Source: Synechococcus sp. BL107 (GTDB taxonomy: Bacteria > Cyanobacteriota > Cyanobacteriia > PCC-6307 > Cyanobiaceae). From it: 64,000 nt of DNA. The notes under the pieces were generated by a model that saw nothing but the letters and a program-made list of their open reading frames with translations, had not been told where the DNA came from and did no database searches. Location: NCBI RefSeq assembly GCF_000153805.1, contig NZ_DS022298.1, positions 8,616 to 72,615 of the forward strand, given 5' to 3'. The position numbers and the translations under genes are program-made. Positions 8,474 through 21,325 of the stretch are shown here, piece by piece. Every line of letters starts with the position of its first letter. The stretch's first letter is position 1.

Positions 8474-9146
8474 GGGCGGTAATTTGCTTGCGCTTCTGAT
8501 CGGTTTCTCCATCCTGCTCGGTGGATCCCCCGCATGGGCATCGCCTTTGGAGCAAAGGCTGGAGCTTTGGCCGAATTGGACGTTGCCGGCACCTCTCAGC
8601 CGCCCCTCCAGCCGTGATGACCTGATCTATCCGCAATGGTTCCAGGGCCGATGGGAGGTGCAAAGTGTCGACCTCGACGACCTTGACCAGCCCGCCATCA
8701 CCCACGAGGCGCGCTTCATTTCCGACAGCCAAAACAGGCTGGTGGGGGATCGCGCCTTCAACGCCAATGCCATCGGTCGGGCCCTGCTCGGCGAACAGTT
8801 GCTGCGGGTCGAAGACGACCCCAAGTCATCCAATCGTCAGATGGCGCAGCTCACAGGTGATCGACGATTGGAAACCACCGTGACGGGCAGACAGCAGCAG
8901 TCCCCCAATTCCGACACGTTTTTAGCCGATGAGTTGGTTCTCCAAATCCTCCACGCACCCGGGCCGCCAAGGTTGAGTCAGGTGGAAACCCTGAGCCGAT
9001 ATCAACGCTGCGGTTCAGGAATCTGCGCCGAACAGTGGCAAGGGGTTTACCCGCCACCAGGAGAAAAGTTGCGCGATTCCGTTCAAAGCAGCCACCACTA
9101 TCAGCTGCGATTCACACCTCTTCCAGCGTCCGCTCCATCAACTTGA
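8472..9146 (+). CDS. Exported DUF6816-type protein
   Basis: 224-aa protein with an N-terminal signal peptide (hydrophobic LLALLIGFSILLGG, then PAWA-S as a plausible cleavage site), so probably lumenal or periplasmic. The body contains WPNWTLPAPLSRPSSRDDL and YPQWFQGRWEVQSVDL, followed by beta-rich sequence suggesting a lipocalin-like barrel. I recall this pattern from the cyanobacterial and plastid DUF6816 family, with unknown function. It is divergent from the CRR7-like gene with overlapping start codons, and the 3' end overlaps the GST gene by 35 bp. Confidence 0.7.
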   Translation: MGGNLLALLIGFSILLGGSPAWASPLEQRLELWPNWTLPAPLSRPSSRDDLIYPQWFQGRWEVQSVDLDDLDQPAITHEARFISDSQNRLVGDRAFNANAIGRALLGEQLLRVEDDPKSSNRQMAQLTGDRRLETTVTGRQQQSPNSDTFLADELVLQILHAPGPPRLSQVETLSRYQRCGSGICAEQWQGVYPPPGEKLRDSVQSSHHYQLRFTPLPASAPST

Positions 9147-9837
9147 GCTCGAGTGAGTCGCGCCATTGGAAAAGGGCCTGCAACTTTGGGTGGTCGCTCA
9201 AGCCAGGTACACCTTTTCCCGCCAAAGCAGCACCCGCAGACGATGGAAAGTTCAACAACGAGAGTTGAGCGGCTACAGATAAGTCGGCCATCGACATGGC
9301 ATCTCCCACCAGCCAAGGACTTTGTTGAACTGAGGCAGACAACTTCTCGAGGCTGGTGAGCAAATCCGCACGATCGTTCTGATTCACCAACTCAGTCACG
9401 CTGCCAACCCAGCCACCGGGGATCGCACCCATCACCGTGCGCACCGGATCAGGGAGATCATCGGGGAGTAGTGCAACACGCAGCGATGGATCCATGGCCG
9501 CCGCCTGAACGAGGGCAGAGCGTCCAGCTGCGGCCAATGTTGTATCGGCCCAATCCTCAATCAGTTGCACCTGAGCCGCCTCACGCACATCGTCAGGAAT
9601 CAGTGCAGGACTGGGTTCTCGTTGTTCGAGGTGTCGAGCAATCGCTGACGAATCGGCCACCACAACGTCACCATCCACCAGGACAGGAACCTGGCGCTGG
9701 CCAGATATTCGAAAGACAGCGACCTGGCCAATCCCCGGTGTGACTTCAACGGTGCGGTAGCTGAGGCCTTTGGCCTGTAGCACCATTCGAACCTTCAGGC
9801 AGAAAGCGGAATGGCGAAATTGATGCAGTTCCATCAT
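9112..9837 (-). CDS. Glutathione S-transferase family protein
   Basis: About 241 aa. The N-terminal thioredoxin-fold domain reads MELHQFRHSAFCLKVRMVLQ, with a Cys/Ser-type active site near HSAFCLK, a QVPVLVDGDVVVADSSAIARHL glutathione-binding segment (cis-Pro and the Ser pair), and then an all-helical C-terminal domain. It probably conjugates glutathione to an electrophile or acts as a thiol-handling enzyme; the substrate is unknown. Two Met codons at 9837 and 9834 are the likely starts; an upstream ATG at 9852 adds five residues. It is convergent with the DUF6816-type gene. Confidence 0.85.
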   Translation of the reverse strand: MMELHQFRHSAFCLKVRMVLQAKGLSYRTVEVTPGIGQVAVFRISGQRQVPVLVDGDVVVADSSAIARHLEQREPSPALIPDDVREAAQVQLIEDWADTTLAAAGRSALVQAAAMDPSLRVALLPDDLPDPVRTVMGAIPGGWVGSVTELVNQNDRADLLTSLEKLSASVQQSPWLVGDAMSMADLSVAAQLSLLNFPSSAGAALAGKGVPGLSDHPKLQALFQWRDSLELKLMERTLEEV

Positions 9838-9896
9838 CACCGAAGGTCCCATGAGGCCGGCAGAGTAGCTATTAGAAACCAGAGCTCGCCAGCACC

Positions 9897-10103
9897 ATGC
9901 GGGAGTTTTTCCTCAACGTCACCCGTTATCCGCGTTATTTAGTGACCTTCACGCTCGGGGTGATGAACTCCGTGGCTGAACCCCTCGCCCAGCGACGCAG
10001 CAATCCGGTGACGGCGGTAGCCATGATCGGAGCCCTCATCAGCGGTTTCATCAGCCTCTCGTTGGTGCTCCGTGCGATGGTGAATGGAGTACCGATGGCG
10101 TAA
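9897..10103 (+). CDS. ycf33: Ycf33 / DUF751 family small membrane protein
   Basis: 68 aa with two hydrophobic segments (about 15-25 and 42-62) separated by AQRRSNPVT. The pattern [19 protein letters not shown] is typical of the DUF751/Ycf33 family found in cyanobacteria and some plastid genomes; function unknown. The stop TAA shares its last A with the rbfA start ATG, so the two are translationally coupled. Confidence 0.85.
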
Positions 10104-10507
10104 TGGCTCAGGGGCGTCGGGTAGAGCGGGTCGCAGCCCTGATCCGCAAAGAAACCAGCGAACTATTGATCAATGGCATCCGCGACGAACGGGTGCACAA
10201 AGGAATGGTGAGCATCACCTCCGTGGAAGTGGCTGGGGATCTTCAACACTGCAAGATTTTTGTGAGCATTTTTGGTGAACCCAACGACCAAAATGAAGTC
10301 ATGGAGGGGCTTGAAGCCGCGAGCGGTTATTTGAGGGGTGAACTTGGGCGTCGTCTCCAGATGCGTCGGGCACCGGAGGTGAAATTTCAATTGGATCGCG
10401 GCCTCGAAAAGGGAACATCCGTGCTTGGGCTCCTTAACCAACTCGAAGATCAACGCCAAGAACGCGGTGAAATCCCCCTGGGAAGCGATGAGCTACAGCC
10501 CGACTGA
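10103..10507 (+). CDS. rbfA: Ribosome-binding factor A
   Basis: 134-aa KH-like protein that assists late 16S rRNA maturation in the 30S subunit. The N-terminus [18 protein letters not shown], the central [22 protein letters not shown] and [16 protein letters not shown] are all RbfA hallmarks. It is coupled to ycf33 upstream (1-bp overlap), and its last 20 bp overlap the start of the GH3 gene, forming a three-gene run. Confidence 0.95.
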
Positions 10508-12104
10508 TCGATTGGGGCAACAGGTTGCCGAGCTGATCGTGGTTCGAGCCAGTGGCCACCTCTGCGACCAACAACGTCGCTACCCACGCTGGGAACTCAA
10601 CAACGCCAACCTGGCACGTCTCCTGCATCAGGGCGTCGGGGGGGTGATCCTCCTGGGGGGAAGCGCTGTGGAATTACAGCAGCGCACTGAGATGTTGCGG
10701 CGATGGAGTGATCAACCTCTTTTGCTTTGTGCCGACGTTGAAGAGGGCGTTGGCCAACGCTTTGAAGGCGCAAGCTGGCTCGTCCCACCGTTAGCCCTCG
10801 GCTTGTTGTTTAAGGGCGAGCCTCAGCGAGCCTTGGACTTGGCTGAGCGTTACGGCCGTTGCACTGGAAACCAAGCGCGTCGCTGCGGACTGAACTGGGT
10901 GCTTGGACCTGTTTGCGACGTCAACAACAACCCCGCCAACCCGGTGATCAATGTGCGGGCTTGGGGTGAAGATGCCGCCACAGCAGGTGCCCTTGCTGCT
11001 GCATTCCAAAGGGGACTCAGCCGAGCTGGTGTGCTGGGCTGTGCCAAGCACTTTCCAGGCCACGGAGACACCAGCAGCGACTCCCACTTGGACTTACCCG
11101 TCCTTCCCCATAACCGGGAGCGCTTGGCCGAAATTGAACTCCCACCCTTTCAGGAGGTGATCGCCGCCGGAGTGGACAGCGTCATGACAGCGCATCTACT
11201 GCTTCCCGAATTAGATCAAGACCATCCCGCAACGCTCTCAAAGACAGTGCTCACCAACCTGTTGCGGAACGACTTGTGCTTTGACGGCTTGGTGGTGACG
11301 GACGCCCTGGTGATGGAAGCGATCACCAAGCGCTATGGCTCTGCAGAGGCGGCGGTGTTGGCCTTTGAGGCCGGAGCTGATCTGATCTTGATGCCCGCCG
11401 ATGCCGATGCGGCGATCCAGGGTTTATGTGAGGCCTTTCGCAGCGGCCGGCTACCCAAGCAGCGACTCGAGGACTCACGAGAGCGGCGCCATCAGGCGCT
11501 GAGGCGAAGCCAACGGCACCATCCAAACGACTCATCACAGGACACCCCAATCCCATCAGAGTCCGAGCGACAACTGGAACAGGAGCTCGTCACTGCCTGT
11601 CTTCATCTGCAACCCGGCACCGGCATCAACAGCAGCCAAGGCATCAATCTGATTCGGGTGGATGGCATCGTTCCTTGCCCAGTTCTCACTGGAACAGCGC
11701 CCGCGCTTCGCCTACCCGAAGCTGAAGGATTCAAGAGCCTGGTGATCCACAGCCAAGGCCTCTCCCCTTGGTAACCAGAACCGGATTACCCCCTTGCCTT
11801 GGATCGACTTGGGGAGGGTCCGGTGCTGCTGCAACTATTTATCCGTGGCAATCCTTTTCGCGGCTCGCAAGACAGCATCGAACCTTGGTTGGCTGCAGTG
11901 CAGCAGCTCCAAAAGCTCGATCGGCTGGCCGGTCTTGTCGTCTACGGCAGCCCCTACGTGTGGGAGCAGTTGAGAATCGTCCTGAAGCCCGACATCCCTG
12001 CTGCCTACAGCCCAGGACAAATGCCGGAAGCACAACGACAAGTGCTGAAGAGTCTGCTGAACCGCTCACACAGCGCAATGGGTAACGCTGATTTCACCGA
12101 CTAG
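10488..12104 (+). pseudogene. GH3 beta-N-acetylhexosaminidase (NagZ-like) interrupted by an in-frame TAA
   Basis: Family 3 glycoside hydrolase, about 538 codons from the ATG at 10488. The NagZ signature KHFPGHGDTSSDSHLDLP lies near residue 190 and the catalytic Asp in VVTDALVMEAI is D272. NagZ removes N-acetylglucosamine from muropeptides during wall recycling. Codon 429 is TAA (11772-11774), but the same frame continues as PEPDYPLALDRLGEGPVLLQ and on to the stop at 12104 in coding-quality sequence. A single C-to-T change (CAA to TAA) would explain it. The catalytic domain is complete before the stop; the lost part is the C-terminal accessory region. Real nonsense mutation or sequencing error cannot be separated here. 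Confidence 0.85.
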
Positions 12105-12140
12105 GCGCTTTAACCTCGGCCGATCCAGCGGCCCCAACTG

Positions 12141-13343
12141 ATGCTCAGCCTTTCCATGATCGTGCGCAACGAAGAGGCACGACTGGCAAAATGCTTAGCC
12201 TCCGTAGAGGGGTTCGCCGATGAAATCGTCGTGGTGGACACCGGTTCCATTGACGGCACCGTGGCAATCGCCGAACAAGCCGGGGCCCGCATCGATCAGA
12301 TGGAGTGGCCTGGGGATTTTGCCCCTGCCCGAAACCATGCTCTGAAATTCCTCACGGGCGATTGGGTGCTGGTGCTGGATGCAGATGAACAACTTCGGCC
12401 TGAGGTGATTCCGTCTTTAAAAGCCCTGATGGCCCAGCCCGATGTGCTGGTGATCAACCTGCTTCGCTATGAGATCGGGGCGGCCATGGCTCCCTATTCC
12501 AGCGTCAGTCGGTTGTTTCGACGTCATCCCAGCATCCAGTGGAGTCGCCCTTATCACTCGATGATCGATGAGAGCGTTCAGGCGCTGATTTCGTCTGAGC
12601 CTCAGTGGCGTATCGCGAATTGCAGCGAACCAGCCATCCTTCATGACGGTTACAGGCCCGAACTTCTCGCTGGCTCCGACAAAGCCGATCGGCTGCGTGA
12701 GGCCATGGAGGACGACCTCAAACGACACCCTGGCGATCCCTACGCAAGCGCCAAACTCGGTGGACTCTTGATCAGCGAAGGCCGCGCGTCCGAGGCCATT
12801 CCGCTCTTGCGACAAGGCCTTGAAAATGCAACCGCCCAGAGCAGCGAACGTTATGAATTACTCCTTCATCTCGGTTTAGCGCTCAGCGAATCCGATCCAG
12901 ACGAAGCCGTGGCCTTCTATCGCCAAGCCCTGGACATCCCGCTCGACACCCGCATCACCCTTGGTGCTCGCCTCAACCTGGCAGCGCGATTAATGGAACA
13001 GAACCAACTCGATGAGGCGATCCAGCTCACGCAAACCGCCACGCAACGGGCTCCGGAAGTGGCCTTGGGTTGGTACAACCTCGGCTTGATGCTCCGCAAA
13101 AAAGGAGAGATCGCCGCGGCCCTCGAGTCCTATGGCCGTTCCCTTGCCTTGGATCCCAACAATGCTGCTTGTCATCAAAACCATGCCGTAGCCAGGTTGC
13201 TCGGCGGGGATATCGAAGCCGCCCGCAACGGGTTTCGGACAGCGATTGAACTGTTGGCGGCCCAAGGTCGTACCGATGAGGCCCGCCAACTGCGCGACAA
13301 CGTTCAAGGAATCGTGAAACTTGATACGGAGCTGGTGACGTGA
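12141..13343 (+). CDS. GT2 glycosyltransferase with C-terminal TPR repeats
   Basis: 400 aa. Residues 1 to about 200 form a GT-A domain of family 2: LSLSMIVRNEEARLAKCL, then VDTGSIDGT, WPGDFAPARNHAL and the metal-binding LDADEQL. Residues about 205-390 are tetratricopeptide repeats (for example GWYNLGLMLRKKGEIAAALE and AACHQNHAVARLLGGDIEAA). It is probably cytoplasmic and transfers a sugar in surface glycan synthesis; donor and acceptor are unknown. Its stop overlaps the GTG start of hemD (GTGA). Confidence 0.9.
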   Translation: MLSLSMIVRNEEARLAKCLASVEGFADEIVVVDTGSIDGTVAIAEQAGARIDQMEWPGDFAPARNHALKFLTGDWVLVLDADEQLRPEVIPSLKALMAQPDVLVINLLRYEIGAAMAPYSSVSRLFRRHPSIQWSRPYHSMIDESVQALISSEPQWRIANCSEPAILHDGYRPELLAGSDKADRLREAMEDDLKRHPGDPYASAKLGGLLISEGRASEAIPLLRQGLENATAQSSERYELLLHLGLALSESDPDEAVAFYRQALDIPLDTRITLGARLNLAARLMEQNQLDEAIQLTQTATQRAPEVALGWYNLGLMLRKKGEIAAALESYGRSLALDPNNAACHQNHAVARLLGGDIEAARNGFRTAIELLAAQGRTDEARQLRDNVQGIVKLDTELVT

Positions 13344-14158
13344 GCCTCCCCGCCTCAAGATCGGACCAGCCACTACAACATCGCACCGTGGTCGTCACCC
13401 GCGCGGCTGAGCAGCAGGGAGAAGCCAGAGAACTCTTGGAGGCAAAGGGTGCGAACGTTCTGGACCTACCAGCTTTGGTGATTGTTCCGCCAGATCACTG
13501 GGGACCACTGGACGATGCATTGGCTGACCTCGACAACTTCCATTGGCTGGTGTTTTCCAGTGCCAATGGTGTTTTGGCCGTTGAACAACGACTTCAACGA
13601 CAGCAGCGCAGCCTCTGCCGGCTACCGAGAAGCCTAAAAATTGCAGCCGTTGGACGCAAAACAGCAAGACTTCTCGAGGAGCTGGGAGCCCCTGCCGATT
13701 TCGTTCCTCCCAGCTTTGTTGCTGAGAGTTTGATTGATCATTTCCCGGTATCCGGCTGGGGGTTAACCATGCTTCTGCCCAGGGTTCAGCACGGTGGCAG
13801 AACGGTCTTGGCAGATGCCTTCGGTGAAGCGGGGGTGCGCGTCGTGGAGGTTGCTGCCTACGACTCCCGCTGCCCAGACCACATTGCGGAACCAGCCGCC
13901 ACGGCCCTAGCCGATGGTGCCGTGGATGTGATCGCCTTCACCAGTGGTAAGACCGCAACGCATACCGCCCAGCTCATGGAGAGACGCTTCGGAAGCGAAT
14001 GGGAACAACATTTTAACGGAGTGGCCGTGGTGTCGATCGGTCCTCAAACCAGCCGCTGCTGCCGTGAGCACTTCGGCCGAGTGGATGCAGAAGCCGACCC
14101 GCACGACCTAGAAGGATTGGTGGAGGCCTGCGCTCAAGCGATACAGAGCAAATCCTGA
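13340..14158 (+). CDS. hemD: Uroporphyrinogen-III synthase
   Basis: 272 aa, GTG start overlapping the stop of the GT2 gene. The enzyme closes and inverts ring D of hydroxymethylbilane to give uroporphyrinogen III, the branch point of haem, chlorophyll, bilin and cobalamin synthesis. Visible features are the N-terminal RTVVVTRAAEQQGEARELL, WLVFSSANGV, KIAAVGRKTA and, in the second half, VDVIAFTSGKTATH and VVSIGPQTSR, all conserved in HemD. It is convergent with a lipoprotein gene (25-bp overlap). Confidence 0.93.
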   Translation: MSLPASRSDQPLQHRTVVVTRAAEQQGEARELLEAKGANVLDLPALVIVPPDHWGPLDDALADLDNFHWLVFSSANGVLAVEQRLQRQQRSLCRLPRSLKIAAVGRKTARLLEELGAPADFVPPSFVAESLIDHFPVSGWGLTMLLPRVQHGGRTVLADAFGEAGVRVVEVAAYDSRCPDHIAEPAATALADGAVDVIAFTSGKTATHTAQLMERRFGSEWEQHFNGVAVVSIGPQTSRCCREHFGRVDAEADPHDLEGLVEACAQAIQSKS

Positions 14159-20091: not shown

Positions 20092-21325
20092 TTAAGTGGG
20101 TTCCGCTTCTTCCGACGGCAACACCAGCCCCAAACGATGGGCGATCGGCGCCAATGCAAATCCTTGAAGTAGCAAGCCAAACAACACCACGGCCAAGGCG
20201 AGGGGTGGCATCAACTTCCCCCAGGGGGCGGGCGATGCCCAAGCCTGAATTGCCATTGCAATGGGAACCGCCCCACGTAAACCCGTCCATGCCACAAAGC
20301 GTTTTTCACTGCTTTGAAAATCCGCTCGAAGCAACAACAGCTGCACCATCAGCCACCGCACCAGCTGCATCGCCAGCACCAGAAGGAGAGCCCATCCGGC
20401 AGCCTCAACAACATTTTGGGGGGCGACAACCAAGCCCAGACATAAAAAAAGCAGCAGCTCAGCCATTTTCGCGAAGCTGGAATGGGCTTCTTCGAGCACC
20501 TCTTGGGCGGCAGCACGGCTATTGCCCAACACAAGGCCCGCCACATAGGCCGCCAAGAGCGGACTTCCGCCCATCAACGTTGTGCCCCCTGACAACACCA
20601 ACAGGAGAGCCAAGCTCACCACCGGCAGCATGGAGCCCCGGGTGAGCGATTGACTGCCCATCAGCAGCTGGGAAATCATGCTGCCGCCAATAAATCCAAG
20701 CAGTCCACCCAAAAGGAATTGCCGGATCACATCCGTCACCAAATCGGCTGTGGCCAAACCCGTCCCACCGGCTAAGGCCAAGGCAACATTGGCCAAAACC
20801 ACCGCCATTGGATCGTTAATGGTGGATTCCATTTCGATCAAATCGAGGACCCGCTGAGGCAAGCGACCAGCCAGTGGTCGCAACAGTGAAAGGGCTGCTG
20901 AAGCATCTGTACTGCTCAACATGGCCCCAACAAACAACACCTGAGCGAGCAATCCCACCTGCCATTTCCCCTGGACGATGAGAGCCCCCACGCCAATCAG
21001 CGTGAGCAACCCAGCCGTCAGCAACACACCAAGACTGGCGAGCCGAGCTGCTGGTCGGATCACAGATTTCATCCGCGTCCAATTGGTGGTGAGCCCTCCA
21101 AAAAAAGAGCACCAGAATCAAAGCCGACTGGGTGATCCGATCCGCCCGGACGAGCGACAGCAATGGCTCACTGGTCGAGCGCAAGTCGTTGTCGACCAGC
21201 AATCCCAAGGCCAACACCAGAAGAATTCCTGGCAATTTGACGCGATCAGCCAGGTCATCAAGCAGCACTGCCGCCAAGAGCAGACCGCCAAATGCCATCA
21301 AGTAGAGGGCTAAGTGATCGTGCAC
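20092..21325 (-). pseudogene. Na+/H+ antiporter (CPA1-type) split by a frameshift at an A7 run
   Basis: Cation/proton antiporter of about 410 aa after correction. The GTG start at 21325 gives MHDHLALYLMAFGGLLLAAV and continues to LILVLFF (residue 75), where a run of seven T on the coding strand (A7 at 21100-21106) shifts the frame. Removing one T restores LVLFFGGLTTNWTRMKSVIRP and the rest of the protein to the stop at 20092, including SSTDASAALSLLRP, EMESTINDPMAVVL and WTGLRGAVPIAMAIQA. The fragments are otherwise well preserved. Candidates are sequencing error, recent inactivation, or slippage-based on/off switching. Confidence 0.87.

Follow-up and report, generated by a model that had tools for sequence, protein, structure and literature searches.

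The genome of Synechococcus sp. BL107 carries a nagZ-like GH3 gene that is interrupted by an in-frame TAA at codon 429, within the second of its two domains. The sequence shows this stop, a conserved remnant in the same frame beyond it and, elsewhere in the genome, an intact anmK gene; none of the relatives examined shares the stop. With moderate confidence, we favour a recent nonsense mutation that cuts translation short within domain 2 and reduces or removes activity. Under this proposal, codon 429 of a two-domain NagZ-type gene would have become a stop through a recent change of one base in the living BL107 strain. Translation would then stop at this codon, and the resulting 428-residue protein would keep its GH3 barrel intact but only a stub of domain 2. 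The enzyme would probably be lost or much reduced, such that recycling of GlcNAc-anhydroMurNAc ahead of AnmK would be impaired. The observation is correct and its biology is ordinary: like other nonsense-interrupted bacterial genes, this one has a single in-frame stop and a remnant that is conserved and in frame, and nothing distinctive was found when it was set against them.

The interrupted gene and its domains

The window, the whole stretch of 64,000 nucleotides that was analysed, covers positions 8616-72615 of a single-contig genome (G000; 2,285,034 bases). Within it, the nagZ-like frame opens at ATG 10488, and both the sequence and its translation place TGG at 11769-11771 and the stop at 11772-11774, in agreement with the earlier note. 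Past the TAA, the same frame reads PEPDYPLALDRLGEGPVLLQ and remains open for 109 codons to a TAG at 12102-12104. The features of the locus are as follows.

10103..10507, + strand: upstream neighbour, which we take to be rbfA-like; overlaps the nagZ start by 20 bases and has a match in 108 of the 109 loci other than the window's own
10488..11774, + strand: nagZ-like GH3 gene as now ended, 428 codons plus TAA (PF00933, E 4.1e-80)
10518..11486, + strand: GH3 N-terminal catalytic domain, residues 11-333 (PF00933)
11046..11087, + strand: KHFPGHG (187-193) ... DSH (198-200) motif, residues 187-200, in invariant alignment columns
11301..11303, + strand: codon of D272 (VVTDAL), the presumed nucleophile, invariant in the alignment
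11631..12059, + strand: Bac_GH3_C domain (PF18034), residues 382-524, found by profile search and interrupted by the stop
11772..11774, + strand: in-frame TAA, codon 429, from the sequence and the genome surveys
11775..12104, + strand: conserved remnant of the C-terminal part, in frame with the gene (109 codons, then TAG) and ending FTD, recognised by profile and structure matches and by conservation
12141..13343, + strand: downstream neighbour, presumably glycosyltransferase/TPR-like; match in 94 of the 109 loci other than the window's own, some of these loci being short

Profile search describes the read-through protein as one two-domain NagZ-type GH3 protein, with PF00933 at residues 11-333 and PF18034 at 382-524. 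The identity of the family is supported by the score to PF00933, the GH3 N-terminal domain (270 bits against a curated cut-off of 27), together with the KHFPGHG...DSH residues and D272, all of which are invariant in an alignment of 45 of 55 non-redundant relatives. We take the former to be the NagZ motif, with the role given to it in the NagZ literature, and D272 to be the catalytic Asp; both lie ahead of the stop, as had been claimed. Although PRK05337 (NF003740, the beta-N-acetylhexosaminidase equivalog) is the top NCBIfam model for the read-through protein, its score of 179 bits falls below the 207-bit cut-off, and the gene is thus filed as NagZ-type only. On sequence grounds, it is best read as encoding a two-domain NagZ-type beta-N-acetylglucosaminidase of peptidoglycan recycling.

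The two sides of the stop are halves of one domain. Searched by itself, the front piece matches PF18034 as far as position 48 of the 137 in the profile, and the back piece by itself matches it from position 50 (E 2e-31), as well as matching PDB 3sql (E 1.3e-9). Accordingly, the domain is complete only in the read-through protein, whereas the translated product ends at profile position 48. This pattern marks a genuine interruption of a single gene, and it bears out the suggestion of the earlier note that the frame stays open and coding-like as far as 12104.

Among known structures, residues 9-531 match both domains of 3sql/3sqm with an E value of 5.6e-125 ('Glycoside Hydrolase from Synechococcus', 3sqm being solved with N-acetyl-D-glucosamine). 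The same pair is the top Foldseek match of the model of an intact relative (L032), at 42% identity. The solved protein is uninterrupted, whereas the window gene stops at codon 429; a literature search for 3SQL found no publication. Single-domain NagZ proteins such as 3gs6 have the GH3 catalytic domain in common with the window gene (window residues 35-315), but the 3gs6 chain has 340 residues and the window product possesses a linker and 47 residues of the broken domain 2 besides. Bacillus subtilis NagZ/YbbD (3bmx, 4gyj) is likewise a GH3 beta-N-acetylglucosaminidase with sequence beyond the barrel; it is named a lipoprotein, is uninterrupted and is 23% identical to the L032 model in structural alignment.

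Codon 429 and the C-terminal part in relatives

Loci were taken from 78 related genomes (70 with a match, with loci kept for 30 places) and from a scan of public genomes (the best 80 of 180 relatives). The 111 loci examined include two that are the window's own and eleven pairs that are duplicates. Three of the remaining 109 are cut by contig ends (L042, L078 and L096) and were left out of the conservation counts. Each of the 106 uncut loci continues without a stop to at least 526 residues. As for class-level relatives, 30 were searched and 20 fetched, and every one of the 20 extends beyond the stop position. Thus, the possibility that homologues normally end at this codon is ruled out. Among the places listed for 222 genomes of the family, only the window's own has an inner stop. 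A stop that is absent from close relatives, with a conserved remnant beyond it, is the pattern of a nonsense mutant.

The earlier note pointed out that CAA and TAA differ by one transition and asked if residue 429 is Gln in relatives. The three nearest distinct relatives do encode Gln at this column, with CAG in the nearest (88% identical) and CAA in the next two (85%), and this makes one such transition plausible. Gln does not predominate in the wider set, in which 97 of 98 distinct proteins have a residue at column 429: Ser is the commonest (56), followed by Gln (18), Arg (7), Lys (4), His (3), Gly (3), Ala (2), Glu (2), Thr (1) and Asn (1).

Relatives conserve the part of the protein beyond the stop. 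Across 95 of them, identity to the window protein averages 0.714 over residues 1-335, 0.256 over the linker (336-381), 0.504 over 382-428, 0.570 over 430-441, 0.656 over 442-524 and 0.274 over 525-538, and the 45-sequence alignment has RGNPF (453-457), Q511, A515 and Q516 as invariant residues of the lost part. Following a variable stretch, the protein ends in FTD (residues 536-538; 12093-12101). All 95 uncut distinct relatives likewise end in FT and one further residue (FTD in 85, FTN in six and others in four), as do seven of the 20 class-level relatives (FTD, FTT or FTN). This tail, which is predicted to be disordered in the AlphaFold model of L032, is possibly a docking or terminal recognition tail.

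Several other genomes drew attention during the survey. Stops first reported in G053 (TAG), G075 (TGA) and G070 (TGA) were rejected, none being inside the alignment on recheck. The nagZ of G053 (L254, G053:C68:2000-4300), a distant cyanobacterial relative with a 120-contig assembly, lies in two frames covering residues 9-111 and 113-526, with a frame change near residue 112, and the matches in G092 and G105 extend to contig ends. In a member of the family from another genus, a nagZ gene (L193, G265:C1:2056500-2060000, - strand) has a frameshift near codon 441 at a six-G run, in the same domain 2 loop as the window stop; this is either an independent event or a homopolymer error.

Coupling of nagZ and anmK

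AnmK is the next enzyme of the pathway and acts on the anhydroMurNAc product. One study states that NagZ frees GlcNAc from peptidoglycan fragments, and that almost all cyanobacteria have a NagZ-type enzyme (PMC12903740). A literature search on anhydroMurNAc kinase together with NagZ in cyanobacteria found no paper. Of the 222 family genomes, 152 have a match to nagZ and 153 a match to anmK (PF03702). All 152 genomes with nagZ also possess anmK, one (G028) matches anmK only, and 69 match neither, so that in 221 of the 222 the two genes share the same state, either present together or unmatched together. That nagZ is unmatched in 70 of these genomes indicates that it is dispensable in the family, and the pattern of absence looks like co-loss of a peptidoglycan-recycling pair. 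Of the 20 genomes listed from these 70, 17 belong to genus g57, which we take to be high-light Prochlorococcus, with genomes of 1.6-1.7 Mb.

This coupling speaks for a working nagZ being kept, as a rule, for as long as anmK is. The window's genome retains an open, intact anmK, and its one PF00933 place is the nagZ-like gene itself; no second GH3 copy was found in the genome, and hence there is no spare. The coupling accordingly makes a sequencing error, or else a very recent event, more likely. Should the stop be real, the strain would offer a natural test of NagZ loss with AnmK kept. This combination was otherwise seen once in the 222 family genomes, in G028, which has no close match to the downstream neighbour gene either and may thus reflect a larger deletion or a gap in the assembly. 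The BL107 nagZ call should be flagged wherever genome-based arguments on cell-wall recycling draw on it.

The short product and the origin of the stop

In the AlphaFold model of L032 (mean pLDDT 86.9), domain 2 has strands at residues 385-391, 415-420, 446-452, 480-487 and 505-508, of which the stop takes away the last three. The model of the 428-residue product retains the barrel, with 29 of the 34 ten-residue blocks up to residue 340 at 84 or above, as in the full-length L032 model. Across residues 371-428, the block values are 49-70 in the short product versus 69-92 in the full-length model, and the strands at 385-391 and 415-420 vanish. Because different sequences were modelled and AlphaFold does not test stability, these differences are an indication only, but they suggest that the domain 2 stub probably cannot fold.

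The earlier note proposed that the short product may still be active, and the complete catalytic domain does leave room for some activity. In its stronger form, this proposal makes the short product a functional, single-domain-like enzyme for which domain 2 has become dispensable, an explanation that overlaps with the nonsense mutation favoured here and that we consider unlikely. Its appeal is that NagZ enzymes without domain 2 exist: one report includes such enzymes among the characterised GH3 beta-N-acetylglucosaminidases (PMC6987092), 340-residue beta-hexosaminidase structures occur among the PDB matches (3gs6 and others), and the truncated model retains a confident barrel. The proposal is weakened by the leftover half-domain, which is modelled with low confidence, as the stop falls inside domain 2 and not at a domain border. 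Furthermore, the identity retained at 442-524 approaches that of residues 1-335 and far exceeds that of the linker, and the class-level relatives fetched all continue past this point. Bypass of the stop, either by readthrough or by downstream reinitiation giving a two-fragment split enzyme, is very improbable. The remnant does look constrained, and an in-frame GTG at 11823 (codon 446), with a GGGGAGGG stretch upstream, stands at the start of a domain 2 strand. However, this stretch also occurs in the intact L032 and L033 and is absent from the nearest relative, L003, while a start codon with an SD-like 4-mer is found there in 31 of 96 sequences, the window's included. Nine in-frame ATG, GTG or TTG codons follow the stop, three of them with a loose SD-like 4-mer within 20 bases; the best of these is the GTG at 11823, and a separate C-terminal gene is not supported. 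Nor did any signal for recoding stand out: RNA folding near the stop is unremarkable (z -0.19 to -0.90), Rfam gave no match in 9500-13500, the stretch 11400-12300 contains no promoter- or terminator-like site, and no conserved recoding element was found at the stop, which is itself present in none of the 106 uncut loci of relatives. Readthrough signals were rejected on these grounds, and a readthrough product or split enzyme is thus unlikely. TAA is also an ordinary terminator in this genome: of the 653 ORFs of at least 150 amino acids picked from the 800 kb read, not all of which need be genes, it ends 189. More doubtful still is a natural split NagZ that would reassemble from both in-frame pieces, produced through reinitiation near 11823 or a low level of readthrough.

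The remnant shows no sign of decay. For the window gene, pairwise dN/dS is 0.158 ahead of the stop and 0.244 past it in the comparison with L003; the two figures are 0.172 and 0.171 with L032, and 0.167 and 0.195 with L033. These values are like those of intact pairs at similar distance, for which the corresponding figures are 0.150 and 0.226 (L003-L032), 0.138 and 0.232 (L003-L033), and 0.095 and 0.642 (L032-L033, the latter from nine changes only). The branch leading to the window gene carries 34 synonymous and 14 non-synonymous changes ahead of the stop and seven and five past it (Fisher p 0.49), counts that are too small to separate a young mutation, an error and continued use. The lack of decay is what would be seen if the mutation were very young, if it were a sequencing error or if the remnant were still used; so the stop appears to be either very recent or absent from the living strain.

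A base-calling or assembly error, with the gene intact in the living strain, is the most serious competing explanation, and we hold it possible but doubtful. The lack of any sign of relaxed selection after the stop is compatible with it, and the tight coupling of nagZ to anmK predicts a working nagZ. The window's genome has N runs at 8547-8615 and 734581-734755 of G000, two within 800 kb, while none was found in 1.2 Mb of its sister, G006 (2,234,828 bases), presumably marine Synechococcus CC9902. A gene at about window positions 20095-21325 (- strand), which we take to be Na+/H+ antiporter-like, is frameshifted at a seven-A run (21100-21106; T on the coding strand), whereas the sister has six A and a single 410-residue frame; this is either a sequencing error or a second broken gene. 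With this homopolymer frameshift and two N runs, the window's genome is not of finished grade everywhere. Against an error at codon 429, the change is a substitution and involves no homopolymer indel, and the nearer N run is 11.8 kb away. Moreover, clean internal stops are rare. When coding-like genes in 800 kb of the window's genome and 1.2 Mb of the sister were scanned with codon-position and 10-93% position filters, internal stops were found in two of 511 comparable genes in the former (nagZ and one near an assembly gap) and in two of 524 in the latter, one of which is clean and mid-gene. Clean internal stops thus occur about once per 500 genes in both genomes (1/511 and 1/524), and the sequence is not generally error-ridden. 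The recent nonsense mutation is retained as the preferred reading.

The scan yielded further cases of broken or apparently broken genes. The many stops of a looser first scan were mostly in non-coding-like ORFs or near gene ends and were removed by the filters. In the window's genome, the stop at codon 444 of the counterpart of G006 gene 364772-366433 (764772-766433 in joined coordinates) lies about 13 codons before the N run at G000 8547 and was set aside as a gap-edge artefact. This 69-base run (8547-8615) adjoins window position 1, and the gene across it is broken near the gap edge. Unsorted frame changes number ten in the window's genome and five in the sister, several of them at gene starts or N runs. 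In G006, the second internal stop, at codon 60 of 354, coincides with a frame change and may be a frameshift instead of a stop. At G006 371904-372704, codon 200 of a 267-codon gene is a clean in-frame TAA, and the gene is open in the window's genome (G000:C1:906-1709).
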